NCBI GenBank assembly: GCA_028554795.2
Contig: CM068842.1
Span: 51,639,574 to 51,703,573 of the forward strand
Origin: Sinohyriopsis cumingii
Lineage: Eukaryota; Mollusca; Bivalvia; Unionida; Unionidae
Reading direction: 5' to 3'
Length of the DNA stretch: 64,000 nucleotides
A model generated the notes under the pieces. It was not told where the DNA came from and ran no database searches. It saw nothing but the letters and a program-made list of their open reading frames with translations. Within the stretch, counting starts at the first letter, position 1; the number at the start of each line of letters is the position of its first letter. Of the stretch, positions 35,391 to 55,204 are shown in pieces. The position numbers and the translations under genes were made by a program.

Positions 35391-35683
35391 CAGCCAAGGA
35401 GGCATAGCCCCTCCACAATTTTTTTTTAAAAAACGGCAGACAAAAAATTAGTGACAAAAATATTGAAAAAAAAATTGTTTTTTGTGTTATTGGTCGGTTA
35501 GACGAAAACGTATTTGTGACAGCGATGGATTATGACCTCGTAAATAAACATGATTAGTGGAGACCGATATAATCAAATGTCCCGGTTGGACATCCGGAGA
35601 AAAGCTGTAAAGAACATATCCCTGCTGAGACTGCCCTAATGCTTGCCCAGACGCGTTATAGCTAGGCCGACTGCGTCACAAAT
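35391..35683 (-). pseudogene. Copy 2: penton/spike-like gene, C-terminal part (left of the insertion)
   Basis: The coding remnant is about 35487-35683 on the minus strand; 35391-35486 is an A/T-rich convergent spacer. The frame includes QQGYVLYSFSPDVQPG and VYLRGHNPSLSQ, matching the end of the intact protein at 44686-46110. Its upstream part lies on the far side of the 16-kb element, starting at 51772; the frame continues exactly if the element and one copy of CAAAT are ignored. Confidence 0.88.
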
Positions 35684-35993
35684 AGCAGCAGAGGGGCTGT
35701 ACAGACCGAAACTTTTTGCACAATAAACCCCTCCAGGAAACTATTCCTCGATAGAGGGCTTATTTCGACGAAATAAACCCTTCTATTCAGAATACAGGAC
35801 AAAAAAAAATGTCCCCCGAAAACTCGAAGAGTTTCCAGGGACAAACTCGTTGAGTTTGCACTGACAACTTGGGTTACTTCAATAAATCTGAAACAGTTTC
35901 CGTGGCGGGGTCGTTATTGAAAAATCCATGGGTCGGGTCCATCCCCTCTGCTGCTCTGGGAAATGAGTTTCCAAGGAAAAACATTTTTATGTT
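35684..35993 (+). repeat. Left terminal inverted repeat, 310 bp
   Basis: It pairs with 51462-51771. It contains several short palindromes: TTATTTCGACGAAATAA (about 35760-35776), a hairpin with GAAAACTC GAA GAGTTTC (35810-35843) and CAAACTCGTTGAGTTTG (about 35843-35859). The outer motif GCAGCAGAGGGG recurs inverted near its inner end (about 35942-35955), so each TIR can fold on itself. The ATPase stop codon lies in its last bases. Confidence 0.95.
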
Positions 35994-36658
35994 GCAAATA
36001 GTGTATCAAGTCCAATACGGTATCTTGTTCTGGGATCGTGTAAATTTATTGTCACAAATCCGTGAGGTTTTCTTTGAGCATGACTGAAGAAATTTTTAAA
36101 TTTATTTAAATCCATATCGCCACCACACCAGGTTTGATGAATATTTCTCAGTGTATGTGTATCAACTCCATTGAATATCGCAAGAAGATTACAATTATCC
36201 CTGATTACTTTAGGAATTTGTGTATAACGCTGAGTAACATAAATCACATCAGTGTTTTTGTGACGTCCCCGGGAAAATATTCTTGCGGGATTTTTTTGCT
36301 TGTCCAACATAACATCATCATACACTACTAGGTTGTTAATTGATTCATCAAGATCCTCGACGCTGGGGGCTTCTTCGATATCAGTGATAAATTCAACAAC
36401 ATCCTCACCGTCTTTACTCAGCGCGCTTGCACTCTCATTAAAATCTTTTATAACGTTATAGCATCGTTGATCATCTACAGATGGAGCTATCAAATACAGT
36501 TTATCCCATTTCATCCACTTCATTATCAAGTTCAGCAACAGCTGTGTTTTACCTGAACCGGATGGCCCAATTATAATCGCGCGGATAGAGTTTGGTAGCA
36601 CTGAATTATGCTTAACTGGCTCTTTCTTTTTTGTCGCAGAAAAATCTGTAATTTCCAT
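35987..36658 (-). CDS. FtsK/A32-type genome-packaging ATPase
   Basis: Known role of the family: pumping viral DNA into capsids. The 223-residue protein has Walker A GPSGSGKT (31-38), a Walker B with two acidic residues VVYDD (111-115) and a following YVTQR stretch (140-144) with the conserved Gln. The start is the ATG at 36658 rather than upstream in-frame codons, because it aligns with the relative in copy 2 and the divergent neighbour begins only 22 bp away. Its stop lies inside the left TIR. Size and layout are typical of Polinton/adintovirus ATPases. It occurs in all three copies in this window. Confidence 0.93.
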   Translation of the reverse strand: MEITDFSATKKKEPVKHNSVLPNSIRAIIIGPSGSGKTQLLLNLIMKWMKWDKLYLIAPSVDDQRCYNVIKDFNESASALSKDGEDVVEFITDIEEAPSVEDLDESINNLVVYDDVMLDKQKNPARIFSRGRHKNTDVIYVTQRYTQIPKVIRDNCNLLAIFNGVDTHTLRNIHQTWCGGDMDLNKFKNFFSHAQRKPHGFVTINLHDPRTRYRIGLDTLFAT

Positions 36659-36680
36659 TTGTATATAAAGAATAATAATT
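36659..36680. promoter_or_regulatory. 22-bp divergent promoter region
   Basis: Only 22 bp separate the start codons of the ATPase (minus) and the zinc-ribbon/PLA2 gene (plus). They contain TATATAAAG (36662-36670) and AATAATAATT. The equivalent gap in copy 2 (34341-34369) is 29 bp and also AT-rich. This implies very short leaders or start-proximal promoters. Confidence 0.5.
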
Positions 36681-37186
36681 ATGGATCTATATTGTGTGAA
36701 GTGTAAGGCACGAACCCCTACGAATGATCTAACAACCATTACAACAAAAAATAACAGACAAGCACTTTCTGGTAAGTGTACGCGATGTGGCACAAAAAAA
36801 TTTAGATTTCAAAAAAAAAGCGAGAATTTAGCGGAGGTGACATTGCAGCCAAACTTGGAAAGCTCCCCGGAACTCCCTGGGCAAAGTATCCCGGAGAAAA
36901 ACATCTCCCAGGATACAATTACTGCGGTCCAGGGACCCGACTAGATATCAGACTTGATGAACAATCTAAACCAAAACCGGGAGAGTATCCGATAAACGCT
37001 ATCGACGCAGCGTGTCACATACATGATGTTGCTTATCGAAGTAAAGATCTACAAGACAGGCATATCGCGGATGTGAAATTAATTCATGCACTAAGCGCCA
37101 TAAAAAATAAATCATTTAAGGAGTCACTCGCTAATTGGTTAGTAAGATCAGCGATGAAATCTAAATTAGTATTAGGCGCTGGATAA
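36681..37186 (+). CDS. Zinc-ribbon / phospholipase A2 protein, with a -1 frame change
   Basis: The N-terminal 87-codon frame begins MDLYCVKCKART with a second C-x2-C in GKCTRCG, a zinc ribbon. The second frame, reached by a -1 shift near 36811-36819, encodes a parvovirus-type phospholipase A2: calcium loop YNYCGPGTRLD and catalytic ACHIHDVAY (His-Asp pair), ending LVLGAG with a stop at 37184-37186. The known role of such domains is membrane breach during entry. The shift sits on nine As (CAAAAAAAAAG), a possible slippery site. In copy 2 the two parts are in one frame. Programmed frameshifting, a recent mutation or a homopolymer sequencing error are all possible. Confidence 0.85.
36810..36820 (+). 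promoter_or_regulatory. A9 tract, candidate -1 slippage site
   Basis: In frame zero the codons read CAA AAA AAA AGC, which contains the heptamer A AAA AAA. A -1 shift here joins the zinc ribbon directly to the PLA2 frame. No downstream pseudoknot was assessed. Confidence 0.4.
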
Positions 37187-37196
37187 TTAAATAAAA

Positions 37197-38186
37197 ATGC
37201 AAGCGATTTATTATTCCCCAATCGGATACTGGAGAGGTAACTCAGCAATTAATAAACTCGCCAACGCGGCATCAGTAACACGCGAGGTTGCCAAAAATTG
37301 GCTATCAAAACAAGCAATATGGCAAATCTACTTACCACCACCTCGACAAATCAACTTTGCACATTTTGATGTTAGTGTGCCCAATGAAGTTCATCAGGCT
37401 GACATACTATTCCTGCCTCATGATACTGTCCGTAGAAAAATATACAAATACGCGCTAACAGTAGTTGATGTTGCCAGTAGATACAAAGAAGCAGAACCGT
37501 TAGCGACTAAAACAGCGTCCGAAGTCGCCTCTGCGTTTAAACGAATTTATCAACGAGGACCTCTAAACTGGCCACGATTATTACAAGTTGATCCTGGCAA
37601 GGAATTTCAGGGCGCGGTGTCATCACTGACAAAGCAGCATAACGTTACCATACGACGAGGACATACTGAAATTCATCGGGAGCAGGCAATTGTTGAGCGA
37701 TTTAATAGAACACTCGCTGAGAGATTATTCGGATACCAGTACGCGAGGGAATTCATTTACGATACGAGATCTCGTGAATGGGTTGCAAGACTGCCAAACG
37801 TGATAGCCGCACTGAATAATGAAATTACCAGAACAACAAACATGAGACCTGTAAATGCAATCACAAAAAAATATATACCCCGCGTCAGTGAACGCGGACA
37901 ACAGCAACAAAATGTTTCAACGCAGCCAGGGACGCTAGCGTCCCCACTGCTGGGTAATGTCACCGTTAGGTATTTATACGAACCAGGCGAACTAGAAGGA
38001 GGAAAAAAAAGAGCAACCGATCCCACATGGAGTGTTACTACACATAAGATATCCAGCATAACCAGATCAACTGGGAGAAACGCAATCTACAGATTAGATT
38101 CGACTGCTCCTCAACGCGGATTTAAACGCGAGCAACTTCAGGTGATTCCCGAGGATACACAATTACCACCCCGATCACTAAAGTGA
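37197..38186 (+). CDS. Polinton-type DDE integrase (retroviral-like)
   Basis: A 329-residue integrase of the rve superfamily, expected to cut and join element ends to host DNA with short target duplications. It has an N-terminal helical region (YWRGNSAINKLA), then the catalytic triad: Asp69 in HQADILFL, Asp132 in LLQVDPGKEF and Glu167 in AIVERFN, with the characteristic 35-residue D-E spacing. A basic C-terminal region (260-329) would bind DNA. The gene is intact, follows the PLA2 gene by 10 bp and converges on the polymerase gene. A decayed relative lies at 56560-57535. Confidence 0.95.
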   Translation: MQAIYYSPIGYWRGNSAINKLANAASVTREVAKNWLSKQAIWQIYLPPPRQINFAHFDVSVPNEVHQADILFLPHDTVRRKIYKYALTVVDVASRYKEAEPLATKTASEVASAFKRIYQRGPLNWPRLLQVDPGKEFQGAVSSLTKQHNVTIRRGHTEIHREQAIVERFNRTLAERLFGYQYAREFIYDTRSREWVARLPNVIAALNNEITRTTNMRPVNAITKKYIPRVSERGQQQQNVSTQPGTLASPLLGNVTVRYLYEPGELEGGKKRATDPTWSVTTHKISSITRSTGRNAIYRLDSTAPQRGFKREQLQVIPEDTQLPPRSLK

Positions 38187-38210: not shown

Positions 38211-41200
38211 TTAAATAACTGCAGCAACACCTCTGCGTCGGTTACACTCAAGACAGGTCAACATCACATTTTCACGTGTATGACCGCGACTGCTATCTAT
38301 TCTATCTACGGTGAATTGCCTTGGGTCGTTTTTCGAATACTGCCACAGCAATAAACAATTACAACTCGCACAGTGATTATTCTGCTGTTGTTGTAATTGT
38401 ATTACAAATTCAACATCCAAACTTTGTTTGGGATCAAACTCTCTACCATTTTTTTTGTCGCTCTGTTTGTAACCGGCTAATTTCTTTCTTATTGTGTCAT
38501 CAGCGATTGAGCTGTCGTTGACAACATCATCTAATACAATTCTTCGTAACTGACCTATCCTTCTTACTCTTGACACGGCTAAATAAACTAAATTTGACCA
38601 CTCGATGCGATCATCAACAATCCAAACTGTTGTATCTGAAATAGTTAGTCCCTGCGAACTGTGGATGGTCATAGCGTATCCTAGCGTCCACGGGGATTTG
38701 CTCATTTTCAGTGCCTGTTCAACAGCATCAACATCAACTGTGACAATATCATTTAATACTAAATTCTGTTTCTCCGGACCCGACGCAGTCAGGCGCCCTG
38801 GAATATCAACATCAATATTCTGCAATCGCGTATCAGCTGGTCTATAACACAACGGCACTGGCAACATGGGAAATTTCTTCTGATGTAACTGAAATAACCG
38901 CTGCTGAAGTGTGTCCCTGACTATCTTTCTACTTGCCACAATTAAATCACCTGGTTTCCACGTTTCCCAAAAGTCGCTCAGCGAAGTCTCTGGAATTATT
39001 TCACGCATTATCTCACACTGGACTTTATTGGTTTGTAGCCTGATCAGTGCCTTAAACTCTTTCAGCGTTTCATCGAGTGCTCTAACATCGTTAGTTATTT
39101 CCTCATAATAATCTACAAAAGTTTTCAGCCACTCGTGTGGAGATTCACCTGTAAATGGGGGTGGTTGACCATGATCGCCGCACATCACCACTGCGGTATT
39201 TTTCTTTAGCAGCCAATCCAGAAACTGTTTTAATGTATCCAACGGCACAGTGTCTATCTCATCCCAGATGATTTTCTCGGGAATATATTTCGTTCCCATT
39301 CGTTCAGGTGTCCACGTGCCGCCGCTGTATTTGAAAAAACTGTGATACGTGCACGCGTTAACATCCCGTTGTCTCATCTCCCTGGCAAGTCTGTGTGTGG
39401 GTGTTAGCACAATCATGTCAGAGTTTCTAAATAATTCAATCGCTCGAGTTGTTTTACCAGAACCACCAGGACCGTTCAGATAAACTGTTTTGTGTCTTGT
39501 AACAGGATCGTGCACCGGCGGCAACAACGAAGTTGCCCCCGACGAAACCATCGAAGATATTTCTGCGCTGCGATACTCATCCTCGATTTCAACATCAGCC
39601 GATTTACAATATCCGTGTAACATTTCATTCTTTATTCTCCACGAGCCCCACGATGGATCATCCGATATAACATTATCCAACAGCGCTGAGTGTTTTTTAT
39701 CAATATAAAATGAATCCGTTGCAACTCTCACTGCGGCAACAGGGAATCTATTGATCATCGACAACAAATTTATGGATACATAAGCCAGCATCGAAGATCT
39801 CAAATGTATGTACTGAGATGATTCTCCGTCAATATAACTAAAAACAGTCCCTAGTTTTTCCCCGTTTGACAGAAACACATCTTTGCGGTTACAGAACATG
39901 TTGTTCGTGGCTGCATCAGCGACAATAAGATCCAATTCAGTCTTGTCCATGATTAATCGACTGTGATGTTGTTTATGATCATACGCTCCACCTTGAGTGA
40001 ATTTCCCTATTATTCTTCGTCCTAGATCTTTTGCTGTGCTTTCATCATTTCTGAGTTTGCTTTTAAGTACTTCAGGAGCTTTCTTGATGATAGCGTCGAT
40101 AGAAGTTTCTGGATATTCTCGTGACCAATCTTCGATGACTTCTTCTAACGTAACCGGCGTTGGAGTTGGCAACCAAACTTCGGTTTGACGACAATAACAT
40201 ATAATCGCTTCGCTGACCGTCAGCGACAACAGTATTCGACTGTCAAGCATGTATCGCAATAACACTATCGGTGCCCATCGCTTCTCAACGAAATGTCTGC
40301 CAAACCAAACATAACACACAGGATGTAAATCCTTAGCGAATTTAAACGACGACACACAAGCAAATCCGGTCAAGTCAAAATCGGGTAAAACACCGTTGAC
40401 AGCTACTCTTGTCATGGTATTGCCAGCGTGGCCAAACCGTTTAAAATATTCGCTGCATTCTCCACGCCCAAGGAAACTTCCTGGATAACACGCCGTCATG
40501 TCCACGGATATCATACCGCGGTGATCATACTGAGTATTCCACAAACCGCCGTGTCCGTATTCGACACAGCTCTGCTGGATATCAGCAAGAAAACTTTTCG
40601 GAGTTGGTCTCCATGAATTTCGTTCCCGGGCTACATGCGCGACAACACCCGGGACAGTAAAACAGTGTGTCAGTAACGTATCAGTGTTGCCAGCATGATA
40701 TTTTTCTGCGAGTTTTTTCATTTCCTGCTGTAACGCCATTGTTCTGTATATTTCCCCGTTAGGTCTCACAAACTGATCATATTCTCCATCTTCGCTACTT
40801 CTGAATAACCACACAGACACTGGATCGGTTTTACTTATCTGATAAATAAAATCAAACATGCTCCCAGAATTGCTTTGCAATTCCGGATAATACTTCACAA
40901 CACGGTCTTGCGGAAATATCCTAACCGAGTCAGTCCAGGCGTGACTGTTATGATCGATAATAGTTATTGGTGTTCCACGGGAATTGTATTTACACTCATA
41001 CAATACCTCACCGGTTAACGATGAAACCGTTATAGGAAATTTTAGTAATCGCTCTAGCTCAGCAACATCATTTATTGACGCTCCTTTATCCGCTACTCGT
41101 GTCGCCCACGCTGTTATTTTAGTTTGTCTTAGCGGTGTTAGGCCGTTTCCTCGCATTGCATTTTTAAAATGTTCCATTACTCGCTCAGCTACACAATTCA

Positions 41201-41735
41201 ACACCGACACCTTCATCGGTTTGAGTTTATCAACGCGTGGTTTCTTCATCGGATAAATTCCATAAACAACTGCGGTCACAGGATACGCTCTGGCATAATA
41301 TGGTATATCAATCCCAACAAGTACTCCCGGTTTTGAGTCTTTACTTAACAGAACGGTTTTTCCACGAACGCCTCTGGCATCAAGAACAGGGTCTAGTTTG
41401 TCTCTGATAATCCACGTTCCCTCGCCGACTCCAACAATAAATTTTATCTGTACGAAATATCTTCTATCGTCGAGATACCCAATTATGTTACGCGCGATTG
41501 TATCGTTCATGGTAGCATCAATGATACGGTCACGAGAAATGCTCGCGTTTCCGAGGATAATTTTATACGAAGACCACGTGTGTGCGGCACCATCACGACG
41601 AAACTCTTCTTTGGCATTCTTGATAACACCAATTACCTCTGCTAACTCTCTTCGTCGTGGATCAGCGGTTAACCGGTCAAGATCGAATCTAGAACCTGAT
41701 ATGGGTTTTATTCTGGATAGTCTTTCAAAACCCAT
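38211..41735 (-). CDS. DNA polymerase B - SF1 helicase - HNH fusion protein
   Basis: A 1,174-residue protein, the only replication gene of the element. N-terminal region (1-400): no confident domain; a NCVAERVMEHF motif (180-190) and HNSHAW (262-267) are visible. Polymerase-like palm: motif A SVDMTACYPGSF (410-421), a KFTQGG region (578-583) and motif C VATDS (671-675), which keeps the essential second Asp but has Ala for the first. Helicase: Walker A GPGGSGKT (755-762), Walker B IIWDEID (822-828), GDHGQPP (853-859), TIHSSQG (1023-1029) and VYLAVSR (1050-1056), as in Pif1/RecD-type SF1 enzymes. C-terminal HNH nuclease with C-x2-C pairs (1122/1125, 1161/1164), His1152 and Asn1156. Classic Polintons carry a polymerase without helicase. 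Start in the context TAATAATG. Confidence 0.85.
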   Translation of the reverse strand: MGFERLSRIKPISGSRFDLDRLTADPRRRELAEVIGVIKNAKEEFRRDGAAHTWSSYKIILGNASISRDRIIDATMNDTIARNIIGYLDDRRYFVQIKFIVGVGEGTWIIRDKLDPVLDARGVRGKTVLLSKDSKPGVLVGIDIPYYARAYPVTAVVYGIYPMKKPRVDKLKPMKVSVLNCVAERVMEHFKNAMRGNGLTPLRQTKITAWATRVADKGASINDVAELERLLKFPITVSSLTGEVLYECKYNSRGTPITIIDHNSHAWTDSVRIFPQDRVVKYYPELQSNSGSMFDFIYQISKTDPVSVWLFRSSEDGEYDQFVRPNGEIYRTMALQQEMKKLAEKYHAGNTDTLLTHCFTVPGVVAHVARERNSWRPTPKSFLADIQQSCVEYGHGGLWNTQYDHRGMISVDMTACYPGSFLGRGECSEYFKRFGHAGNTMTRVAVNGVLPDFDLTGFACVSSFKFAKDLHPVCYVWFGRHFVEKRWAPIVLLRYMLDSRILLSLTVSEAIICYCRQTEVWLPTPTPVTLEEVIEDWSREYPETSIDAIIKKAPEVLKSKLRNDESTAKDLGRRIIGKFTQGGAYDHKQHHSRLIMDKTELDLIVADAATNNMFCNRKDVFLSNGEKLGTVFSYIDGESSQYIHLRSSMLAYVSINLLSMINRFPVAAVRVATDSFYIDKKHSALLDNVISDDPSWGSWRIKNEMLHGYCKSADVEIEDEYRSAEISSMVSSGATSLLPPVHDPVTRHKTVYLNGPGGSGKTTRAIELFRNSDMIVLTPTHRLAREMRQRDVNACTYHSFFKYSGGTWTPERMGTKYIPEKIIWDEIDTVPLDTLKQFLDWLLKKNTAVVMCGDHGQPPPFTGESPHEWLKTFVDYYEEITNDVRALDETLKEFKALIRLQTNKVQCEIMREIIPETSLSDFWETWKPGDLIVASRKIVRDTLQQRLFQLHQKKFPMLPVPLCYRPADTRLQNIDVDIPGRLTASGPEKQNLVLNDIVTVDVDAVEQALKMSKSPWTLGYAMTIHSSQGLTISDTTVWIVDDRIEWSNLVYLAVSRVRRIGQLRRIVLDDVVNDSSIADDTIRKKLAGYKQSDKKNGREFDPKQSLDVEFVIQLQQQQNNHCASCNCLLLWQYSKNDPRQFTVDRIDSSRGHTRENVMLTCLECNRRRGVAAVI

Positions 41736-41777: not shown

Positions 41778-42068
41778 ATGATGAACCAATGCAAGTGGAT
41801 CAAACTAAATTCATCAGCGCCGTGTAGCAAACCCTGCAGAGGCGAATACTGTGGACAACATGCTCAACAGGTCCGCGGTGGGAGTCTAGGACCGATACCG
41901 TGTATCAGATGCGGCATTGGAGTACGAGGAAAAACGCAATTATGTTCAGCGTGTGGTGGAAAACGCTATCGAGAACTAAAACGGTATTATGATAAAAAAA
42001 ATCCAGACTGTGATAACGCTCTCAAATGCGAGCGTGATTACATAAATAAGTTTTCAGACAAATTATGA
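41778..42068 (+). CDS. Small zinc protein
   Basis: 96 residues with two likely zinc sites: Cys16, Cys20, Cys25 and His28 in the first part, and a C-x2-C...C-x2-C ribbon (Cys42, 45, 56, 59; CIRCG and CSACGG) in the second. A basic/charged tail (RELKRYYDKK) follows. Two ATGs in tandem (41778, 41781) could serve as start. It may bind nucleic acid or modulate transcription (inference). It pairs with the downstream HNH gene in both the intact element and copy 2, suggesting a functional unit. Confidence 0.8.
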   Translation: MMNQCKWIKLNSSAPCSKPCRGEYCGQHAQQVRGGSLGPIPCIRCGIGVRGKTQLCSACGGKRYRELKRYYDKKNPDCDNALKCERDYINKFSDKL

Positions 42069-42095: not shown

Positions 42096-42632
42096 ATGAA
42101 TCAAGAATTCGTCCGACATCCAACTATTCCAAATTATGAGGCAAACCGAGATGGCATAGTGAGAAACTACAGGCTGAGGAAACAAGTTGGTACAGTTGAT
42201 AATGCTGGTTATTTAAGATTTACTGTTAGGAAAGGGAGGTATTTATGTCATCGTTTCGTCTATGAGGTTTTTAACGGAGAGATCCCTAAAGGCCTTGTCA
42301 TTGATCATATTAACGGGAACAGACTTGATAACAGTATTGAAAACCTTCAAGCGATCACTCAGAGCAAGAATACCATACGAGGAAGAGTTAAATGTAAAAC
42401 AGCTATAAGAAGAGCAGTGAAATCTGTGAATGTTGAGACTCGTGAAGAAATAATATTTCAATCAATGAGCGCAGCCGGTAGGTATTTCGGTATTTGTCCA
42501 CCTTCTGTACAGCATGTCGCAGATGGGATCTACAAAACAGCATTTTCAAAGAAGCTCAAACAGAAGATTTCATTCTGTTATATAACTCTTATCGTTGACA
42601 CAAACGACGATAACTCCTCCGAGAGTGTGTAA
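42096..42632 (+). CDS. Free-standing HNH endonuclease (NUMOD4-HNH-NUMOD1 type)
   Basis: 178 residues. The N-terminal NUMOD4-like segment (NYEANRDGIVRNYR, 13-26) precedes an HNH_3 core: CHRFVYEVFNG (51-61), then IDHINGNRLDNSIENL (69-84) with Asp70, His71 and the conserved Asn residues. A NUMOD1-like DNA-binding segment (FQSMSAAGRYFGI, 121-133) lies towards the C-terminus. Such proteins are homing endonucleases of phages and large viruses. Here it starts ATAATG, is intact, and its homologue sits in the same place in copy 2, so it is a stable resident rather than a fresh invader. Confidence 0.9.
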   Translation: MNQEFVRHPTIPNYEANRDGIVRNYRLRKQVGTVDNAGYLRFTVRKGRYLCHRFVYEVFNGEIPKGLVIDHINGNRLDNSIENLQAITQSKNTIRGRVKCKTAIRRAVKSVNVETREEIIFQSMSAAGRYFGICPPSVQHVADGIYKTAFSKKLKQKISFCYITLIVDTNDDNSSESV

Positions 42633-43665
42633 CGCTTTGCAGAGTTGTTGCTGGTCAGAGGATTTGCTCCCCCTAAGAAAGCCACCTTGATAAAATATTT
42701 TATCGAGTTCATAACATGTAATCATTTATTTACCGTAGAATATATATTTTTTTACAAACAATATCCTCGTTTTACTGAATATATCCGACTGTTTTGCTCT
42801 TCTGTGCTTGTTATATGACCGCGCTTAAGAAAACATACAATTAAAATATTTTAAACAAGTCCCGCCCACTGCTAGAGCGAATTTCCAACTCGCAAGTAAC
42901 AGTTGGGTTATATACGAAATCGCTCCCTAAGACCTTTGGGTCGATCGAAAGTCAGCACGCGCAAGCAAAACCATAAATTTAATCCGCCAATGGCGGGTGT
43001 CTTTTGTGCACCATCCAATGGTCGATTCAATGGATGGTTTTGCTCTGCTGCTGACCGTAGAAAATGACCCACCTGTGTATGTTTGTGTCGTCATAGGATA
43101 AGGTCTTAGGATAAGTTAGGATAAGATTACATGTTCATTGTGCCTTTACTTGCTGTCATACTCGAATCAGAGGTAAAGGTTGTCTGTTCTGTACCGTCTC
43201 TTAGGATAAGATTACATGTTCATTGTACCTTTGCTTGCTGTGATACTCGAATCAGAGGTAAAGGTTGTTTGTGTTGTCAAATAAATGTTTGCCGGGCCTG
43301 CTAGAGAACTCGATCCTAGAAGCCAGGGCTGTCTCGTCTTGTAAATAAATGTGCCTCTGAGTCACTTGGCAGTCAGAGGGGTCCGTCCTTAGGATAAGTT
43401 ACGTGTTATATGTTTGTCCTTGTCAATTCACTAAACACGTCCTCTTGAGCCTATAGATATCTAGAGGCTCTTGCAGGGGATAAAGTGTTTCGTGTTACAT
43501 GTTGTATTGTCATGTCGGAAGCAGTCCTCGTGGGGTTCTAGAACGTTATTTGACGATCTAGGCCCTTGCAGGGGATAAATGTTTCCGACTGTCTCGTTTT
43601 GTTTTGGAAAGCTAGCGTTTCTCATGCAAAGTGTTTCTATTAAAAATATAAAAATATATAATAAT
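42633..43665 (+). ncRNA. 1-kb non-coding region with a hairpin cluster
   Basis: No open frame, although the rest of the element is gene-dense. It contains imperfect direct repeats beginning TTAGGATAAGATTACATG (43116 and 43201), each enclosing an inverted pair: CCTTTAC/GTAAAGG (43143-43149, 43173-43179) and CCTTTGC/GTAAAGG (43228-43234, 43258-43264). The A-to-G change keeps pairing as G-U. Further hairpins: CCGCCAATGGCGG (42984-42996), CCATCCA/TGGATGG (43011-43037), CCTCTGA/TCAGAGG (about 43352-43378) and GAGCCT/AGGCTC (about 43448-43471). Candidates are small structured RNAs or a replication/regulatory region; function unknown. Confidence 0.5.
43116..43272 (+). repeat. Two 85-bp tandem direct repeats
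   Basis: Units starting at 43116 and 43201 share TTAGGATAAG, ACATGTTCATTGT, CTTGCTGT, ATACTCGAATCAGAGG and AAAGGTTGT with few changes. A partial third start (CTTAGGATAAG) is at about 43388. Confidence 0.85.
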
Positions 43666-44082
43666 ATGAATCACGAAAATATAAATACCATACTTGTTGA
43701 AATTAAAGAATTACAACAGCGAGGTTTTAATATTTTACTAGACACTGAAACAATTATGTCAGATTTTGAATCCTTGAATGAGCTATCACGCTTGGGGAAG
43801 AACAATCTCCCTGCTCGTTATAGGTTCATTAAGGGTTTGCAAGATCGTGTTTACAGATCACTTGCCGGGATAACTGAAAATCAGGTATCTGAATTTATTC
43901 CACTGTGCCGTGCAGTTGAGAAGATTCGTCTTGGATTGTCACAAGAGTATGAGACTCGAAAATTAATTAGCACCAGGGTGAGACGGTTAAAAGGTTATAT
44001 AAAGAATCTAGACACGGAAATGCCTTGCATTTCTGACAAAAATACTAGTGTTTCTGACTACGAGGCCGACAAGGAAGTATAA
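43666..44082 (+). CDS. Small helical protein, unknown function
   Basis: 138 residues from the ATG in ATAATAATATG; an upstream in-frame ATG at 43579 is less likely because the relative in copy 2 starts with the same MNHEN. The sequence is mostly helical and charged: IKELQQRG, then RYRFIKGLQDRVYR, and KIRLGLSQEYETRK. An acidic tail ends the protein. No enzyme motif. It is the last plus-strand gene before the convergent junction with the structural block. Preserved, though broken, in copy 2. Confidence 0.8.
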   Translation: MNHENINTILVEIKELQQRGFNILLDTETIMSDFESLNELSRLGKNNLPARYRFIKGLQDRVYRSLAGITENQVSEFIPLCRAVEKIRLGLSQEYETRKLISTRVRRLKGYIKNLDTEMPCISDKNTSVSDYEADKEV

Positions 44083-44252: not shown

Positions 44253-44540
44253 TCAGATTTTCAGGATTTGCTTAAGCGTTTCAACATCAATACAGGAATG
44301 AGAATAGTTCATAATCTGTTCTCGTTGACACCAAACTATGATCATATGATTTTGCTGTAGCTCTGTTAATTGTGACGGAGTTAACAAGAAGTCTTCGTCA
44401 CCATACACGTCAATAACTATTTTAACGGGGAAATACTGTTCTGGGAATGTCTGTATTTGAAATGCGGTTTTTATTGCCTCGTAAAGAATTTGCTTATCAT
44501 GAATATGAACTCGTGCATGAATGTACTCGGGTTGATACAT
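44253..44540 (-). CDS. Small conserved-looking protein, unknown function
   Basis: 95 residues from an ATG in the context GTATAATG (44540): MYQPEYIHARVHIHD, then a mixed alpha/beta sequence including VKIVIDVYGDEDFLLT and MIIVWCQREQ. No recognised domain, signal or membrane segment. First gene (promoter-distal) of the minus-strand block. No counterpart was seen in copy 2 in the spacer beside the penton/spike-like remnant. Confidence 0.7.
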   Translation of the reverse strand: MYQPEYIHARVHIHDKQILYEAIKTAFQIQTFPEQYFPVKIVIDVYGDEDFLLTPSQLTELQQNHMIIVWCQREQIMNYSHSCIDVETLKQILKI

Positions 44541-44685: not shown

Positions 44686-46110
44686 TTAGGACTTCACCAG
44701 TAAGTTTATACTAACAGTCTCGTCACGCAGGTCCAACAAATTCCCCCTCTGGTCGGTGAGTTTGAAATTTATCGTTGACAACCACGGGTTATGACACCGT
44801 AGATAGACCGGATTGATTGGTTCTTGCACAATCAGAAAACCAGGGGGGTCTCTTGGTGTGAACGTATACAGGATAAACCCCTGTTGTGCCGTCGTAGTAT
44901 CTGATGCGCTGTAACTGCCATCGATGACGTCACATACAAGATTGACCGCAATAACATCTGTGATATTTACGATCCCGGGTGAGATGTGTCTGCCATCGGA
45001 TGCTGTACTGTTGTCGTGCTTGAGAATAACAGGTTGTGGTTTTATTCGTTCGTACGCGGCAAGAATATCTTCGAAAGATTGATCGATGAGATCAGAGACT
45101 GATTTTCTCAGCTCGGGCACGTTATATCCAGGAAATTTAAAATCTGAAATATCATTCACTTGAATACCATATTTAATTGCAAAATCTGCTCTGGCTATCT
45201 GTCTATAATTATCATCGATATAGTCTTTAAGATCCAGTAAAGCCTGAATTATTCTTAGATTTATAGTTTCCATGGCCGATGCGAGTTTGTTTAGTTTTTC
45301 TATGGTTGTGATAATATTATCACGCGGACTTGTTAAATCAGAAATATAATCTTGGAAATATACTCGCAGGAGTTGTAGCTGTTGTTTATGTACTAGATTG
45401 ATCGGAATAAATAATTCAGATTCTATATCATCTAGACGGTAAACACGGAGCTCCTGCCCCCCCTTAACACGTGGAGCTTCTATACTCCAAGTATCGGGCA
45501 TTAAAGTACTTTTTCTTGCTAGTAATTGATCTGCAAGGAGTAAATAATAATTGTACTCGAGGTCGTGTAGTGCTTCTTTATAGGTCATAAAATCCGATTT
45601 TTCAGGTTTTGGTGGACGAGGTTTAACCTCGGGGGCCTTTGGCCATCCTAATAATGTTCGGATTGAGCTGTTATAAATATCCACGGCGTATCCTGGCGTT
45701 GAGATTTCAATGACCGCAGACAGCGTTGGTTCATGAGCTGTTATAGATATTTTGGCTTCCTTGCCGGTGATTCGTTTTATTTGGCGTTGTATCTCATTAT
45801 TGATTTCTTCGATCTGATAACTCCCAGTGGGAAGTGTAATTGTATTCCAGTCAAGTTCACCCTGTTCGCCGGAGTCGGCTTTGCTTTTCCCGAACACGAA
45901 TGAATTATTTGGCTGCAGACCACCAAATGATGCCGACCTAACATTGGGCCAGCTGTGATACACACTGAGCTTTGCTAACGCGATTTCACTCACTGGAATT
46001 GGAGTTCGAAAATTAATACCGAATTCTGGTGTCGTCGAGGACACTGAGATCATTGTGGTCCTTACCGGTGTTGTGTTTGTGACTATTTGTTGAAGCAGTT
46101 CTATTGACAT
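44686..46110 (-). CDS. Penton/spike-like virion protein
   Basis: 474 residues. The N-terminal region (TTPEFGINFRTPIPVSEIAL ...) leads to NNSFVFGK and the segment TITLPTGSYQIEEINNEI (about 91-108), a phrase that I associate with structural proteins of animal Polinton-like elements. The middle is helical (about 170-340), and the C-terminal part is beta-rich (FILYTFTPRDPPGF, VYLRCHNPWLS). It may be the penton base or a vertex/spike component; a jelly-roll fold needs structural prediction. Starts ATAATG and overlaps the next gene's end by 98 bp. Copy 2's version of this gene is where the intact element inserted. Confidence 0.6.
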   Translation of the reverse strand: MSIELLQQIVTNTTPVRTTMISVSSTTPEFGINFRTPIPVSEIALAKLSVYHSWPNVRSASFGGLQPNNSFVFGKSKADSGEQGELDWNTITLPTGSYQIEEINNEIQRQIKRITGKEAKISITAHEPTLSAVIEISTPGYAVDIYNSSIRTLLGWPKAPEVKPRPPKPEKSDFMTYKEALHDLEYNYYLLLADQLLARKSTLMPDTWSIEAPRVKGGQELRVYRLDDIESELFIPINLVHKQQLQLLRVYFQDYISDLTSPRDNIITTIEKLNKLASAMETINLRIIQALLDLKDYIDDNYRQIARADFAIKYGIQVNDISDFKFPGYNVPELRKSVSDLIDQSFEDILAAYERIKPQPVILKHDNSTASDGRHISPGIVNITDVIAVNLVCDVIDGSYSASDTTTAQQGFILYTFTPRDPPGFLIVQEPINPVYLRCHNPWLSTINFKLTDQRGNLLDLRDETVSINLLVKS

Positions 46111-46585
46111 TATTTATTTGTTTAGTTTTCAAATAGTCATTGTACGCATCTGACATTAGTTTGAATTCAGAATCTGATATCGTAGCGTCGCTACTTTGCA
46201 CGTCTAACGATGATGATATCAGCGATGATAATTTCTGATATGCGGTCGTGGCTGTATTTAATTTTGTCGTGTAATCGTGTAATTTTGTGTTAGCACATGA
46301 TGATATTTTTTTTGCTATGATGCCGAAAACTTCAGCTGTTGTTGTGGCCGCGGAAACACAGATCGTGGCGGCGACTGCTGCAGTTACCGGAGTGACCGCT
46401 GATAGTATTGCTCCGGCAGATGCAACAACGGCAGATACTGAATAAACCATAATATCCAGCACTGTTATGCGGCGCTTGTATTTTTTTACTTTTTGACTAG
46501 TTACTTCGATGACAGTTTTTAACTCAGATTGCCACTCACGGACTTGATTGTATCGATATTGTTGAGCATCTGGCGTCGTTGACAT
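46013..46585 (-). CDS. Membrane protein with two hydrophobic helices
   Basis: 190 residues. A charged N-terminal helix (to residue 40, ending KKYKRRI) precedes two hydrophobic, Ala-rich segments (about 42-63 and 66-90), then a polar helical tail (TTAYQKLSSLISSS). The layout resembles SLATT-type two-helix membrane proteins, which form pores in other systems; that is only an analogy. The last 98 bp overlap the penton/spike-like gene in another frame. Copy 2 has no room for this gene between its penton-like and fibre remnants, so it may be a gain here. Confidence 0.6.
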   Translation of the reverse strand: MSTTPDAQQYRYNQVREWQSELKTVIEVTSQKVKKYKRRITVLDIMVYSVSAVVASAGAILSAVTPVTAAVAATICVSAATTTAEVFGIIAKKISSCANTKLHDYTTKLNTATTAYQKLSSLISSSLDVQSSDATISDSEFKLMSDAYNDYLKTKQINNVNRTASTNSHKHNTGKDHNDLSVLDDTRIRY

Positions 46586-46592: not shown

Positions 46593-47603
46593 TTACGCGG
46601 TAACCAATTGAGGCGTTGCAGCGACGAATTCCAAACAAAACCAGTAAGATGTTGCTGTTAAACTATCGTCCTCGGCTTCAAGCATAAATGTTTCCTCGGT
46701 TCCGCTGTTTAGTATTACAGTGCAAACCCCGGAATACTTATCGGTGGAATGTCTCCAAGGATATGTTGTGAAGATTTCAAATTTAGCGGCTGAAAACACA
46801 GACAACCTGTAAACACCGGTGGCTGTTGCTGTATATTTGATAGTGTTATTTTGTCGTGACCATGTTGCGAATCCCGATGATACCGTGAATACGATGTTGG
46901 TGATATGCCCCGGAGTAACTCCAGTGGGAACTTTAATCAAACTGGTTTTGTTAACGATATCAGGAATACCCGATACGATATCCTGCTGTGTTTGTTTGAT
47001 CGTGTTAATGTCGGTCTTTACATCAGCGAGTTTTACATCGACGACTGGAGGAGTCCCAAAGAACTTATCCACGACCTCATCAGTTTTTACGAAGTTTCTT
47101 CGAAATCTTGTAAACGCGCCCACGTGAACATCATGCTCTGCACGCAGCGTATTTAGTTTACCGTTGACGATGTCCACGTATTGTTTGTTTGACGCATCCT
47201 GGTCGGATTCGGGATTCGCTAACGCGGTTATTTTGTTGCCGCTCATGCTGAGTTCGCCTGTCATCGTGTCACCGGCTTTTTTCACACATTTATCAACACC
47301 TTTATCAATACTGTCTTTGATGCTTGCGATTGATATATTCGAGTCCTTGATCCGGCCGCCATCACTAAATGCAACGAAGTTATCCTTGGTAGCTCCAAGA
47401 ACTCTGCGAATTATATCATTCCACTTAATGTTGCTCGTTCTTAGTTTTCCTTGCCTGTCTTGGAAAATAGCAACTTCATCTGGGTCAACTCCAGCTATAT
47501 TCAAAAGATTATCGACTTCATCTTTGGTCGCATATTTTGAGAGATCAGCATCTGTGCTTGGTTTACCTCCTCGTGTGAAAGGTCTTCCGTAAATATCCAC
47601 CAT
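46593..47603 (-). CDS. Fibre/receptor-binding protein with phage-tail-fibre motif
   Basis: 336 residues. The N-terminal segment MVDIYGRPFTRGGK may anchor it to the capsid. Residues 108-144 hold the repeat KKAGDTMTGELSMSGNKI ... ASNKQYVD, a well-known trimeric-fibre motif of phage tail fibres. A helical shaft follows (KTDINTIKQTQQDI). The C-terminal 120 residues are beta-rich and resemble a compact head domain, the likely receptor contact. Starts AATAATG; 7 bp separate it from the membrane protein. A decayed relative with a second TMTGDL-like unit lies at 53055-53625. Confidence 0.8.
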   Translation of the reverse strand: MVDIYGRPFTRGGKPSTDADLSKYATKDEVDNLLNIAGVDPDEVAIFQDRQGKLRTSNIKWNDIIRRVLGATKDNFVAFSDGGRIKDSNISIASIKDSIDKGVDKCVKKAGDTMTGELSMSGNKITALANPESDQDASNKQYVDIVNGKLNTLRAEHDVHVGAFTRFRRNFVKTDEVVDKFFGTPPVVDVKLADVKTDINTIKQTQQDIVSGIPDIVNKTSLIKVPTGVTPGHITNIVFTVSSGFATWSRQNNTIKYTATATGVYRLSVFSAAKFEIFTTYPWRHSTDKYSGVCTVILNSGTEETFMLEAEDDSLTATSYWFCLEFVAATPQLVTA

Positions 47604-47621: not shown

Positions 47622-48062
47622 TCAAATGCTAGCATTTCTCGATGCGGTATATTCATACACTACTTTATGAGGAGGAGTTGCTGGATTTCTTGAGATTGCA
47701 TCAAGAACATTTAAAACCTCCCTCCCACAAATGGGCGGATCAATTAATGTTTGTGTTGGTAACGTCGACTGCCACACTGGAACATTAGAAAATCTGCTGA
47801 CATACTTGAGAAACTCAACTGGCGGTGCTAAACCGTACGAATCAAAATAGATAATTCCACGTGGATCGATCGCGTAAGCAACCCAGTGAGTTCCCGGACC
47901 ATCTTTGTTGTCGAGATTGATAATGCCAGTTTCTGGATTATTCGGTCGTTGCGGTAATTGATCTCGCATAAATACGCCTCTGAAATGTTTTACACGCAAT
48001 TTTTTAACAGCATCGAGTAAATCAAAATTGCTCAACGGCGTTAGAATTTTTTTGGATACCAT
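47622..48062 (-). CDS. Adenain-type maturation cysteine protease
   Basis: 146 residues, short but complete for the C5/Ulp1-like family that matures adenovirus and Polinton virions. Catalytic residues are visible in order: His59 in GTHWVAY, Asp74 in YFDSYG, Gln104 in LPTQTL and Cys112 in ICGREV. The likely substrates are the neighbouring pX-, pVI- and capsid proteins. Its start overlaps the end of the pX-like gene by 22 bp and, alone in this element, lacks the AATG-type upstream motif. It is therefore probably translated from a shared transcript. Confidence 0.95.
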   Translation of the reverse strand: MVSKKILTPLSNFDLLDAVKKLRVKHFRGVFMRDQLPQRPNNPETGIINLDNKDGPGTHWVAYAIDPRGIIYFDSYGLAPPVEFLKYVSRFSNVPVWQSTLPTQTLIDPPICGREVLNVLDAISRNPATPPHKVVYEYTASRNASI

Positions 48063-48484
48063 GATGGTGGAGTTCCTGGTAGTCTTAGACCGCGTCCCTT
48101 TTTTTTCTTGTATCCTTTTCCCGTTGCCTTTTTTAGTGCCATTCCAGCTGCAGTTCCAACTGCACCGAGTGCTGCGGCTTTTGCTACGGCTGGTGCTGCC
48201 GCGGCAATCAACGCCGGTATTGCTGCGAGAAGAGGAAATATTCCACCGGTTTTAGTCATGTCCTTGATAGCTGCAGCAGAGAAATCAAGTCGGACACCGG
48301 TTTTTGCTGTTAGTGCCTTATTAAAATGTTTAAGCTGAGTATTAGTCAACGACAATTTGTTTGGACCACCAGTAATCTGATCTCGTTTTAGTGTTATTGA
48401 TGTCCCGCACGTGCTTGCGTTCTTTGATTGCAATTTCTTCGTTTGACCGGAAGTCAAGGTGACATTAACATGACTGTATGACAT
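48041..48484 (-). CDS. pX-like core / pre-protein
   Basis: 147 residues. The N-terminal half is polar (TSGQTKKLQSKN, QITGGPNKLSLTNTQLKHF). Then comes KTGGIFPLLAAIPALIAAAAP, a hydrophobic Ala-rich helix, followed by GAVGTAAGMALKK and a strongly basic stretch GKGYKKKKGRG. This is the layout of adenovirus pX/core-type and adintovirus proteins that bind DNA and are cut by the viral protease. Starts ATATAATG. A decayed relative is at 54065-54513. Confidence 0.75.
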   Translation of the reverse strand: MSYSHVNVTLTSGQTKKLQSKNASTCGTSITLKRDQITGGPNKLSLTNTQLKHFNKALTAKTGVRLDFSAAAIKDMTKTGGIFPLLAAIPALIAAAAPAVAKAAALGAVGTAAGMALKKATGKGYKKKKGRGLRLPGTPPSWYPKKF

Positions 48485-48511: not shown

Positions 48512-49852
48512 TTACATATTCTCGATTGGAGCGTCGATGACCCTCATTCGTCCGCCAACACCTTCAAGCAGCATTGCTTTATCGGAGAGTATGACAGCAA
48601 TCGCTCTGTAACCACCAGCAGGAACACCTACACGAGCTCGGAAATGTAGGTCGACAACAGATTGTTTAACCAGATCAAGATGTTCCAGCGAAAAGTAATA
48701 AATCGGATATAAACTCATAAAGTCTCGCTGTGATATTTGCAGGCCAGTGTCTACATTAAGGTCGCGCCCCATAAATGACATCAGACGATGATACGCGCGT
48801 GCGACACGATGATGTTCGAAATCTATTAATATATCCTCAGATGGCTCCTGATGCCCATTTATTCTCAACGAAACTTCAGAAACTCCAAGTGTATCAAATA
48901 CCATTGGATTTCTTTCCTGGCTATCTGTTCTAGCACGGTATTGAAATGCAATGAAAATATGTCGTGGTGCTGATACTCCTTGTTGCGATGATATATGCCA
49001 TGTAAACAACCCACCATTATCACCCTGAATAACGTCTGTGGTTGTTGTTTTCCAGGATAGCAGTGATTTACCGCCCGTGTCCATGAAAGACAACAGTCGT
49101 TGTTCTTCGGTGATTGACGGAGACAACACTGGCATCCACAACCACAGTTTAGTTAGTATTACCTGACCAGGGGCAACAGCAGCATCTCGCCAGATAGCGT
49201 CATTATCATCAGGTTTTCGCACAAGTACAACTGTGTGTTTGGCACCGAATATGACCTTGTGGACATCTCTGCAGAATCCAAAGATGTGAGACAATGGAAT
49301 CACACCTGAGAACTCTTCATCTCCACTTAACATCGATCTACGTGTTGCAAAACCCAAATTAAAATTTTCGTTCATCGATGCAACTGCGTCACCGGCATTA
49401 TTCATTGTTACATTCCTGTTCTCGGGGCTGTCGGTTATATCCTTTGCAAACATCATTGATGGTCCGGCTGATCTGGTGTAATCATCCGAGTATCTCGCCA
49501 ACCCGAGAATTGTTGTGGCAACGTCGACGTTATCATGAATTGTTTCAATTTCTTTTCCATCTATCATGTAAATAGCGGATTTAAATAACGCCATGATGCC
49601 GTTGTTAACAAATCCAACTCGGTCGCCGATTCCGTAGTTAGTGTTATCATTCTTTAAAAGCCTACCTTCAACTTCGATGAAGGCCTCAGCGGGCAAGAAG
49701 TATCTACTTGTATCCTGGACCTGTAGTTCAATTCTTCCGCGTTGGTTAGGATCACGTGCTTCATAAGAATAATATTGAAAATCACGTACAGAATCATCTT
49801 TAAGTACTGGTTTGGACATATCAAACGCGTCATTGGATTTTCGTGCAAACAT
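48512..49852 (-). CDS. Major capsid protein (double jelly-roll type)
   Basis: 446 residues from the ATG in AATAATAATG (49852); an upstream start at 49903 is less likely given that motif. Features of Polinton/adintovirus capsid proteins: the early block VRDFQYYSYEARDPN and RIELQVQDTSRYFLP, the SHIFGFCRDVHKVIFGAKHTVVLVR segment (described, about residues 187-212) and the C-terminal block around SLYPIYYFSLEHLDL. Two eight-stranded jelly rolls would fit the length; the fold is inferred. It would form hexon-like trimers. Relatives are broken at 54640-55200 and 61160-61830. Confidence 0.88.
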   Translation of the reverse strand: MFARKSNDAFDMSKPVLKDDSVRDFQYYSYEARDPNQRGRIELQVQDTSRYFLPAEAFIEVEGRLLKNDNTNYGIGDRVGFVNNGIMALFKSAIYMIDGKEIETIHDNVDVATTILGLARYSDDYTRSAGPSMMFAKDITDSPENRNVTMNNAGDAVASMNENFNLGFATRRSMLSGDEEFSGVIPLSHIFGFCRDVHKVIFGAKHTVVLVRKPDDNDAIWRDAAVAPGQVILTKLWLWMPVLSPSITEEQRLLSFMDTGGKSLLSWKTTTTDVIQGDNGGLFTWHISSQQGVSAPRHIFIAFQYRARTDSQERNPMVFDTLGVSEVSLRINGHQEPSEDILIDFEHHRVARAYHRLMSFMGRDLNVDTGLQISQRDFMSLYPIYYFSLEHLDLVKQSVVDLHFRARVGVPAGGYRAIAVILSDKAMLLEGVGGRMRVIDAPIENM

Positions 49853-49889: not shown

Positions 49890-50348
49890 TCACCGGAAAC
49901 CACTACCAGCTATCAAATTAGCAGTTACACTATCTTGCAACGCTTTGGAGGTAATTCCTGCTGTTGCGATCTCAGCTAATTTCTGATTTACGGCCTTATT
50001 TACTACGCTACTAACATTTGCCGGCATAGCTTCAGTGGATGGTAGTTTTACTGGCACCAACCTCTCGACTGGGTTTTTTTTTCGTATCAGCTGTGCTAGT
50101 CGATCCTTGATTGATTGAAATGCTTTCCCGGCAAGACTACCAACAGTGCCAATGGCTTTATCCTTGACAACATCAGCGGCTTTCATCGCGAATTGTTTTG
50201 CTAACGGTCCAGCTTTCGGAGCGATTCTTGTGACTAAATCCCTAACAACATCACCGACTCCATCTCCGTAAACAACCTCGTATACTGGTAATCGTGAGTT
50301 TACTACTCTGACACTTCTTGGTCTGCGAAAAGAATCGTGTAGTATCAT
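49890..50348 (-). CDS. pVI-like minor virion protein
   Basis: 152 residues. After a short basic lead (FRRPRSVRVVNSR) comes VYEVVYGDGVGDVVRDLV. VYGD-G resembles an adenain cleavage site ([MIL]-x-G-x-G) and would release an amphipathic helix, as in adenovirus pVI. A helical basic stretch follows (IKDRLAQLIRKK), and the C-terminus is NLIAGSGFR. Known role of the model protein: membrane lysis and protease cofactor. Starts AATAAAATG. Identification is by layout, not strong similarity. Confidence 0.6.
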   Translation of the reverse strand: MILHDSFRRPRSVRVVNSRLPVYEVVYGDGVGDVVRDLVTRIAPKAGPLAKQFAMKAADVVKDKAIGTVGSLAGKAFQSIKDRLAQLIRKKNPVERLVPVKLPSTEAMPANVSSVVNKAVNQKLAEIATAGITSKALQDSVTANLIAGSGFR

Positions 50349-51461: not shown

Positions 51462-51771
51462 AACATAAAAATGTTTTTCCTTGGAAACTCATTTCCCAGA
51501 GCAGCAGAGGGGATGGACCCGACCCATGGATTTTTCAATAACGACCCCGCCACGGAAACTGTTTCAGATTTATTGAAGTAACCCAAGTTGTCAGTGCAAA
51601 CTCAACGAGTTTGTCCCTGGAAACTCTTCGAGTTTTCGGGGGACATTTTTTTTTGTCCTGTATTCTGAATAGAAGGGTTTATTTCGTCGAAATAAGCCCT
51701 CTATCGAGGAATAGTTTCCTGGAGGGGTTTATTGTGCAAAAAGTTTCGGTCTGTACAGCCCCTCTGCTGCT
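51462..51771 (-). repeat. Right terminal inverted repeat, 310 bp
   Basis: The reverse complement of 35684-35993, with no mismatch found by eye. It ends CTGCTGCT, directly followed by the CAAAT target duplicate. Confidence 0.95.
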
Positions 51772-53050: not shown

Positions 53051-53054
53051 TAAT

Positions 53055-53625
53055 GTTGAGGAACCATGGATTGCTTCTTTGCATCTTCATCGTTTGATTT
53101 TGGTTCTCTCACATTACCAATGCTATTTCCGCTCAAGTCGAGATCACCAGTCATTGTATCACTGGCTTTATCAACACATTTACTGATCTCAGTTTTGATT
53201 GTATAGCTGTTGTTGTCCACGTATTATTTTTGTTGCTATATCATCGTCTGATTTTGGTTTCCATACTGATAACTGCATTTCTGCTTATGTTGAGATCGCC
53301 ATACATTATTACTCCAATTTTTCTAATACGGTGAGCAAACTTTCCCATGATTGTTAAAAATTGATTCCTTCGAATTTTCAATTTTATCGGTTTTAGTAAA
53401 CATCGCTAAGTTATCTTCGGCCGCCTCCGTAATTCGCAGAATAATATCTTTCAACGAGATATTGCTCGTTTTTAACTGTCCTTGCTGTTCCTGAAAAACA
53501 ACAATTTCATTTGGGTCAACATCGGTGAGACGCATCTGCAAGTTCATCTCGTGTTGCATATTTGGATAAACCAATGTCACCCAGGGGCTTCCAGCCAGCA
53601 GCTCTTCCATAAATATCTACCATTA
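53055..53625 (-). pseudogene. Copy 2: fibre gene, decayed
   Basis: A start-like ATG in GTTTATAATGG (about 53622) and LTDVDPNEIVVFQEQQGQLK match the intact fibre's N-terminal region (GVDPDEVAIFQDRQGKLR). Farther on are DTMTGDLDLSGN and a second, poorer unit of the same motif. The head domain is missing. Confidence 0.82.
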
Positions 53626-53649
53626 TAAACAATTAGTCTTTTTAAAACG

Positions 53650-54513: not shown

Positions 54514-54561
54514 TTATAACATCATGAATGATCTAATTACAGATCTCTTGGGATCCAATTA

Positions 54562-54632
54562 CATGTTTGGAAAACACTTACATATTCGGAAAACATTTAC
54601 ATGTTCGGAAAACATTTACATGTCCGGATAAC
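54562..54632. repeat. 22-bp tandem repeat, about 3.5 units
   Basis: The unit is ACATGTTCGGAAAACATTT with small changes. It lies just downstream of the capsid remnant, where the intact element has no repeat. Confidence 0.85.
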
Positions 54633-54639
54633 ACAAATT

Positions 54640-55200: not shown

Positions 55201-55204
55201 CATT

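Follow-up and report, generated by a model that had tools for sequence, protein, structure and literature searches.

How does a mobile element copy itself when its only recognizable replication gene joins a polymerase-like region, a helicase and a nuclease in one chain? The question is raised by a 64,000-nucleotide stretch of the genome of the mussel Sinohyriopsis cumingii (GenBank assembly GCA_028554795.2, contig CM068842.1, positions 51,639,574 to 51,703,573 of the forward strand; hereafter the window), which holds a 16,088-bp element bounded by perfect 310-bp terminal inverted repeats (TIRs). Within the element lies a gene (38211..41735, − strand) whose product, P0001, is very probably the replicase of an integrated Tlr1-type Polinton-like virus (PLV): judged from its sequence, a fusion of a protein-primed family B DNA polymerase (pPolB), a superfamily 1 (SF1) helicase (S1H) and an HNH nuclease. 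This reading is supported because the domain order and the ATDS motif C equal those given for the Tlr1-like helicase in the relevant passages of PMC11071308, because an alignment of 60 proteins shows the catalytic positions of every domain to be retained, and because the genomic context fits.

Domain architecture and genomic context

P0001 is encoded by a single frame of 1174 amino acids (aa) with an ATG start and zero internal stops. Its N-terminal part (residues 1-164; 41244..41735, − strand) gave zero family matches in library scans of P0001 and the members of set A1, and is a candidate terminal-protein region by position, following the layout described in part of PMC11071308. Residues 165-300 (40836..41243, −) form a candidate vOTU protease, so named from the published domain order, in which Cys181 and His262/His265 are conserved. 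The PolB-like palm (residues 385-745; 39501..40583, −) contains motif A, SVDMTACYPGS (D412), a motif-B-like segment, RRIIGKFTQG (G577-K578-F579), and motif C, VRVATDSFY, where Ala672, just before T673, D674 and S675, stands at the position of the missing first Asp. C-terminal of the palm lies an SF1 helicase of Pif1/RecD/Dda type (residues 746-1070; 38526..39500, −), recognizable by Walker A GPGGSGKTT (K761), Walker B IIWDE (D825 E826) and motifs III (CGDHGQPPP), V (IHSSQG) and VI (AVSRVRR); it matched Pfam AAA_19 (E 2.4e-10) and AAA_30 (4.5e-8), a PHROG Dda-like helicase (3.3e-16) and, among solved structures, 5fhd (7.9e-6) and PIF1 helicases (from 3.9e-4). The chain ends in an HNH/endonuclease VII-like domain (residues 1086-1172; 38220..38480, −) with the pattern Cx2C...D..H...N...Cx2C, which matched PHROG endonuclease VII at 2.4e-9 and six more endonuclease or HNH families at 1e-7 to 0.03; the Pfam HNH model, at 0.19, fell under the cut-off. 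The motif names used here (A, C, Walker A and B, III, V and VI) are those that we take these sequences to bear.

An earlier note on this DNA had read the frame as one protein that unites a PolB-like part with an SF1 helicase and an HNH nuclease, and the 1174-codon frame, the motifs and the helicase and nuclease matches bear this out, the palm being assigned by its motifs. It had also called the fusion the only replication gene, and indeed Pfam and PHROG scans recognized no stand-alone polymerase gene in the element. A fusion created by an assembly join is excluded because many genome copies carry it (39/39 scored genome places span the whole protein) and because relatives elsewhere have the same domain order.

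The surroundings of the gene agree with the Polinton-like nature that had been proposed for the element. The left TIR (35684..35993, + strand) begins AGCAGCAGAGGGG and is 100% complementary to the right TIR (51462..51771, − strand), and the pair is flanked by 5-bp target-site duplications, CAAAT, at 35679..35683 and 51772..51776, a length that fits the 5-6 bp reported for PLVs in the part of PMC12220804 concerned with them. By eye, the terminal motif AGCAGCAGAGGGG recurs in inverted orientation at 35943-35955, close to the inner margin of the left TIR, and each TIR could therefore fold back on itself. Between the TIRs lie a retrovirus-type (rve) integrase (37197..38186, +; Pfam rve E 1.8e-8) and the PLV hallmarks: an A32-like packaging ATPase (35987..36739, −; Pfam Pox_A32 E 6.3e-14), a double-jelly-roll (DJR) major capsid protein (48512..49852, −; Pfam DJR-like_dom E 3.5e-19) and a pS273R/adenain-like cysteine protease (47622..48062, −), which matched PDB 6lj9 (S273R) at E 3.8e-5 and adenain at 0.41, with Pfam Peptidase_C5 (E 0.007) under the cut-off. 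The capsid protein has relatives in the named organisms Sinanodonta woodiana (53%) and Potamilus streckersoni (50%); its alignment against solved structures gave nothing of note.

The closest published counterpart is the family of Tlr1-like helicases. As described in the sections of PMC11071308 devoted to them, these pPolB-S1H proteins of PLVs and transpovirons lack the first Asp of motif C and, in PLVs, end in an HNH or GIY-YIG nuclease; they are modelled there as pPolB palms with TPR1 and TPR2, preceded by a vOTU domain with conserved Cys and His, and Krupovic, Yutin and Koonin 2016 is cited there. P0001 resembles this description in its order of palm, SF1 helicase and C-terminal homing-type nuclease, in its motif C, and in its extended N-terminal region, where a Cys and a His upstream of the palm are conserved, and the element resembles Tlr1 and other PLVs in its DJR capsid protein and, as in Tlr1, its rve integrase. 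The likeness to Tlr1 proteins is one of published description rather than of sequence alignment, and it has exceptions: the nuclease is HNH where Tlr1 itself has GIY-YIG (PMC12721341, in the portion on Tlr1), although HNH is reported for other PLVs in the passages cited above; motif B, described there as conserved in Tlr1-like helicases, is altered in P0001; and the host, a mussel, is an animal, unlike that of Tlr1. The earlier suggestion that the combination may define an undescribed lineage is thus overstated, since the pPolB-S1H architecture with a C-terminal HNH or GIY-YIG domain and no first Asp in motif C is already on record in PMC11071308; what looks unusual is that the host is an animal and that the invasion is so fresh. 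Among the matches listed from the PLV literature, as far as their text was available, we found no description of a Tlr1-type element in a mollusc.

Conservation across relatives

A first protein search with P0001 returned 59 relatives at E<=0.001, with identities of 26-83%, and a protein-database search that used a profile of A2, an alignment of 60 proteins, returned 18 proteins, 7 of them new, including one from the mussel Sinanodonta woodiana (P0107, 49%). Several relatives carry an organism name in their source, among them Elysia crispata, a sea slug (P0037, P0041 and P0048), and two fungi, Diversispora epigaea (P0044) and Funneliformis geosporum (P0060). Another, P0047, is labelled as a metagenome-assembled genome of Thiodiazotropha, which we take to be a clam symbiont. 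The source labels of P0037, P0041, P0044, P0047, P0048 and P0060 make transfer between distant hosts possible, and mislabelled or contaminated assemblies may also lie behind them. In a tree of the 57/60 proteins of at least 700 aa, P0001 groups with P0002, P0003, P0004 and P0005 (support 100); the deeper joins are unsure because long branches meet near this group, as a programme warning indicated. Scans of IMG/VR with P0001, A1, A3, one canonical PolB and the capsid protein yielded no confirmed relative, and a tblastn search of INPHARED with P0001 matched 58 records, the best 20 of the 58 all falling in the helicase region at E 0.3 to 0.9.

We then counted catalytic residues in A2; every sequence reaching across a given column entered the count, and a gap was scored as a miss. 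The palm residues are nearly invariant (D412 57/58, T673 59/60, D674 59/60), and conservation extends to the helicase (K761 56/60, D825 51/58) and the candidate vOTU region (Cys181 49/51, His262 51/53, His265 48/53), the latter a region beyond the scope of the earlier note. The nuclease tail is likewise retained, with C1122, C1125, D1144, H1152 and N1156 in 42-43/47 rows, C1161 and C1164 in 42/46 and N1165 in 40/46. Because these residues are kept across the alignment, the HNH tail is a fixed part of the P0001 family.

This retention bears on whether the tail belongs to the replication machine at all. It could instead be a passenger, a homing endonuclease or the remnant of an intein, an explanation that is less probable than its opposite but carries real weight. 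Intein invasion is proposed for such C-terminal nucleases in the part of PMC11071308 that notes either GIY-YIG or HNH among PLV relatives, and the element also bears a free HNH_3 gene. A passenger nuclease would, however, be expected to come and go, whereas this tail occupies the same place in a family spanning 26-83% identity, and its best match is endonuclease VII-like.

The palm raises a similar question, that of catalytic competence. The loss of the first Asp of motif C, which the earlier note had reported as VATDS, is confirmed by Ala672 in P0001; because Ala occupies this position in 58/60 A2 rows, the absence is a family trait and not decay. The other peculiarity then singled out, a YP-type motif A, proved ordinary, for the canonical pPolBs compared have DVNSLYP or DVCSLYP. 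The family-wide Ala could mean that the palm is inactive and serves solely to bind DNA or primer; P0001 would then work chiefly as helicase and nuclease, and copying of the element would fall to a polymerase of the host. Motif B is also strongly altered (RRIIGKFTQG against, for example, NSSYG of PRD1), and the title of the 2016 paper cited in PMC11071308 refers to an inactivated polymerase. Nonetheless, we regard an inactive palm as improbable: D412, D674 and their flanks are conserved as expected for a working site, active polymerases that lack the same Asp are named in the passages of PMC11071308 on this motif, and Pfam and PHROG scans recognized no other gene in the element as a stand-alone polymerase.

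Recent multiplication in the mussel genome

The size of the element family, again beyond the earlier note, emerged from searches of the 2.90-Gb genome (1138 contigs). The outer 48 bp of the TIR has 600 exact copies (305 forward, 295 reverse) and a 45-mer across motif C has 297 (138 + 159), with 0 for the reversed-pattern control in each case. Together, these counts suggest about 300 elements, or about 4.8 Mb of sequence, and on contig C1 the ends are paired. Of 16 such pairs on C1, 15 measure 16,104-16,217 bp and one 36,729 bp; the exact 45-mer lies inside 13/16 pairs, and 3/16 of the 45-mers on C1 fall outside pairs. The long pair (G000:C1:45697343-45734071) probably holds a nested insertion of ~20 kb, because 36.7 kb separate its TIRs while a perfect duplication is kept.

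Individual copies are nearly identical. When the best 40 of 1291 candidate places were scored for the TIR, 40/40 were identical at 310/310 positions, and of the best 39 of 38,084 candidate places scored for the gene, 38 lacked a stop; both lists are biased toward the best copies. We therefore turned to a less biased set of 21 gene copies, consisting of the first 20 places of the 45-mer search (16 on C1, 4 on C2) and the window copy. Aligned over about 3.5 kb, these differ by 0-11 substitutions per pair, and 17/21 frames are open (one with a 6-base in-frame deletion), the other 4/21 being interrupted by stops or frameshifts. Compared with the window copy, 8/21 (L074, L080-L082 and L090-L093) have in common an in-frame insertion of 21 bases, and at least two subtypes have therefore spread. 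A synonymous-excess test on the gene copies (17 synonymous, 21 non-synonymous, 1 stop; P 0.0498) was borderline and is not used here. Both flanks could be compared for the window copy and for 16 pairs, 14 of them on C1 and two on C2; 17/17 have perfect 5-bp target duplications, and no two of these are alike. Two copies on C2, L009 and L011, about 465 kb apart, share an identical 12 bp of left flank, which points to a duplicated locus or an assembly duplication.

The element family has thus multiplied very recently in its host. Old insertions homogenized by gene conversion could likewise give identical TIRs in all 40 scored places, but this account is very improbable given the 0-11 substitutions per pair across the 21 gene copies, the private target duplication of each tested copy and the full length of 15/16 paired copies on C1.

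Resemblance of the palm to known polymerases

We next weighed how closely residues 385-745 resemble a polymerase palm, and here several results count against the assignment. At E<=1, P0001 and the 24 other A1 members had no match among the polymerase families of Pfam (25/25 without one), and neither did the distant relatives P0060, P0039, P0050, P0056, P0059, P0106, P0107 and P0052. A palm profile built from 58 of the 60 A2 rows was compared with 15 pPolBs (10 annotated proteins of phages or archaeal viruses, 2 encoded on phage contigs that lack annotation, and 3 canonical PolBs of Polintons in the mussel genome) and scored 21.5 (E 0.095, probability 0.6%), which is not significant; 1/30 column-shuffled profiles reached 23.99, and the capsid-protein profile, run on this set as an unrelated control, reached 21.2. 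Compared with Polinton PolBs alone (a profile of 10 of the 12 fetched loci of this genome, two of <700 aa having been dropped), the palm scored 19.2, under at least 6/20 nulls and under the 21.9 of the HNH profile. All three motifs were paired in 2/4 settings with all 15 pPolBs, in 1/4 with the tectivirus-type set and in 0/4 with the phi29-like set, and against single pPolBs motif A was paired in 3/15, motif C in 3/15 and YG in 1/15. The terminal-protein and vOTU assignments, inferred from position and from two or three residues, add a further reservation.

On the other side, the best local alignment of the palm with the 15 pPolBs, 222 columns long, pairs D412 with Asp220 (motif A) and D674 with Asp430 (motif C) of PRD1, and G577 with the YG of PRD1 motif B. 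We treat this apparent register with a PRD1-type pPolB as a hint, not proof. Because the Pfam polymerase families gave no match, the PolB reading depends on the motifs and on published models of like proteins, and the models of Tlr1-like helicases in the corresponding part of PMC11071308 are a stronger argument than this register. That P0001 is an SF1 helicase-nuclease unrelated to PolB, with chance motif matches in residues 400-700, accords with the 0/25 Pfam result and with palm scores in the range of the nulls and the capsid-protein control, but it is highly improbable beside three motifs in register in one local alignment, palm motifs that rank among the most conserved columns of P0001, and the modelling as pPolB, in that same part of PMC11071308, of proteins with the same domain order.

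A proposed replication cycle

If P0001 is the replicase of a Tlr1-type PLV, protein priming would copy the 16-kb element, or a linear version derived from it, starting at the TIR ends. A Ser, Thr or Tyr of the N-terminal region would act as the terminal protein, and the candidate vOTU protease, by analogy with published models and with its conserved Cys181 and His262/His265, would separate the priming domain from the polymerase. The palm, whose motifs are present, would extend the strand via D412 and D674, while the fused SF1 helicase would open the duplex ahead of it and so replace a lost exonuclease domain; no exonuclease family was matched upstream of the palm in Pfam scans of P0001 and the A1 members, in which the palm itself was likewise unmatched by polymerase families. 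The conserved HNH/endonuclease VII-like tail may cut branched or joined DNA, or may spread the gene by homing. Linear copies would then be packaged by the ATPase into the DJR capsid, the genes for which are both present, or inserted, or both, by the rve integrase with the 5-bp duplication seen at the copies.

Other genes of the window and the genome

The remaining genes of the element include a small Cys-rich open reading frame (ORF) of 96 aa (41778..42068, +), by eye a probable zinc ribbon and without a Pfam match, and the separate HNH_3 endonuclease gene (42096..42632, +; Pfam HNH_3 E 1.2e-17). Beyond them, ORFs of 167 aa (43579..44082, +; from the frame list and Pfam and PHROG scans) and 95 aa (44253..44540, −; from the frame list and a Pfam scan) precede a 474-aa ORF (44686..46110, −) that matched no Pfam or PHROG family and is a candidate minor capsid (penton) protein by its place in the capsid block. 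It presumably resembles minor capsid proteins, and we keep it as a candidate only. The block continues with an ORF of 190 aa (46013..46585, −; frame list, Pfam scan), a fibre-like protein (46593..47603, −; Pfam Phage_T7_tail E 8.9e-6, PHROG tail fiber E 9e-7) and a small 147-aa ORF (48041..48484, −) with, by eye, a hydrophobic stretch and a basic tail and no convincing PHROG or Pfam match. ORFs of 152 aa (49890..50348, −) and 344 aa (50398..51432, −), both from the frame list and a Pfam scan, lie between the capsid gene and the right TIR.

Adjoining the element, a decayed relative with many stops occupies window positions 52900-55700 (−). Its protease remnant is 37% identical over 93 columns and its fibre remnant 39% over 66 aa, and remnants of the capsid and candidate minor capsid genes follow in the same order by eye. 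A 132-aa frame at 55808-56206, considered as a possible Polinton PolB, found no support from Pfam or from BLASTP with one of the genome's own PolBs.

Elsewhere in the genome, the best 126 of 15,190 candidate places scored for the DJR capsid family all matched (126/126), many of the frames being 456-458 or 512 aa long; because the 126 do not include the capsid gene of the window, other capsid-bearing element families are probably present. Canonical Polinton-type PolB genes also occur, with the best 75 of 21,499 candidates scored (L050-L061 and 63 more), frames of up to 1363 aa and a DTDS motif read in 11/12 of those fetched. Two COX1 genes, 68% identical, lie on separate contigs. The second (L019, on C1106) adjoins a COX2 that matches Pfam at 5.7e-48 up to residue 217, in a frame that extends to 410 aa. 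Two divergent mitotypes and a lengthened male COX2 are the mark of doubly uniparental inheritance in freshwater mussels (Unionida), and the L019 COX1 with its long COX2 is likely the male mitotype of this mussel. The mitotypes, like the named relatives of the capsid protein, point to Unionida as the likely host group.

Relation to known elements and significance

With canonical Polintons/Mavericks the element shares TIRs, an rve integrase, an ATPase, a protease and a DJR capsid protein. Its replicase nevertheless differs from theirs: canonical Polintons have a stand-alone pPolB with an exonuclease and a DTD motif C, whereas the only polymerase-like gene recognized in the element is a fusion with ATDS. 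OmPLV of Oxyrrhis marina, as characterized in the portion of PMC12721341 that deals with it, also fuses an SF1 helicase and a pPolB within a PLV, but that protein has its helicase at the N-terminus and retains the exonuclease, whereas P0001 has its helicase C-terminal of the palm and gave no exonuclease match. Transpovirons of mimivirids share the pPolB-S1H fusion according to the passages of PMC11071308 that treat them, which also describe their loss of capsid genes; the present element has a capsid block that includes the DJR protein.

A broader picture can be offered tentatively, as one that we think could well prove wrong: an unnamed clade of Tlr1-type PLVs, living in freshwater mussels and sea slugs among the molluscs and having cousins among glomeromycete fungi, would only lately have invaded this mussel's germ line, at about 300 sites, would still be replicating and virion-capable, and would carry in its one-protein replicase an HNH tail that is a fixed resolvase and not a homing passenger.

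In the survey of Bellas et al., cnidarian capsid genes are given, in the section of PMC10120064 on metazoans, as the sole metazoan ones outside the main Maverick-Polinton cluster. We regard the recent burst in an animal as a more interesting result than the architecture of the protein. If the element is a Tlr1-type virus, the presence of hundreds of mostly intact and nearly identical copies in a bilaterian would extend the range of hosts known for such viruses, and the copies would provide a young system for testing protein-primed pPolB-S1H replication, the roles of the vOTU and HNH domains, and particle formation.

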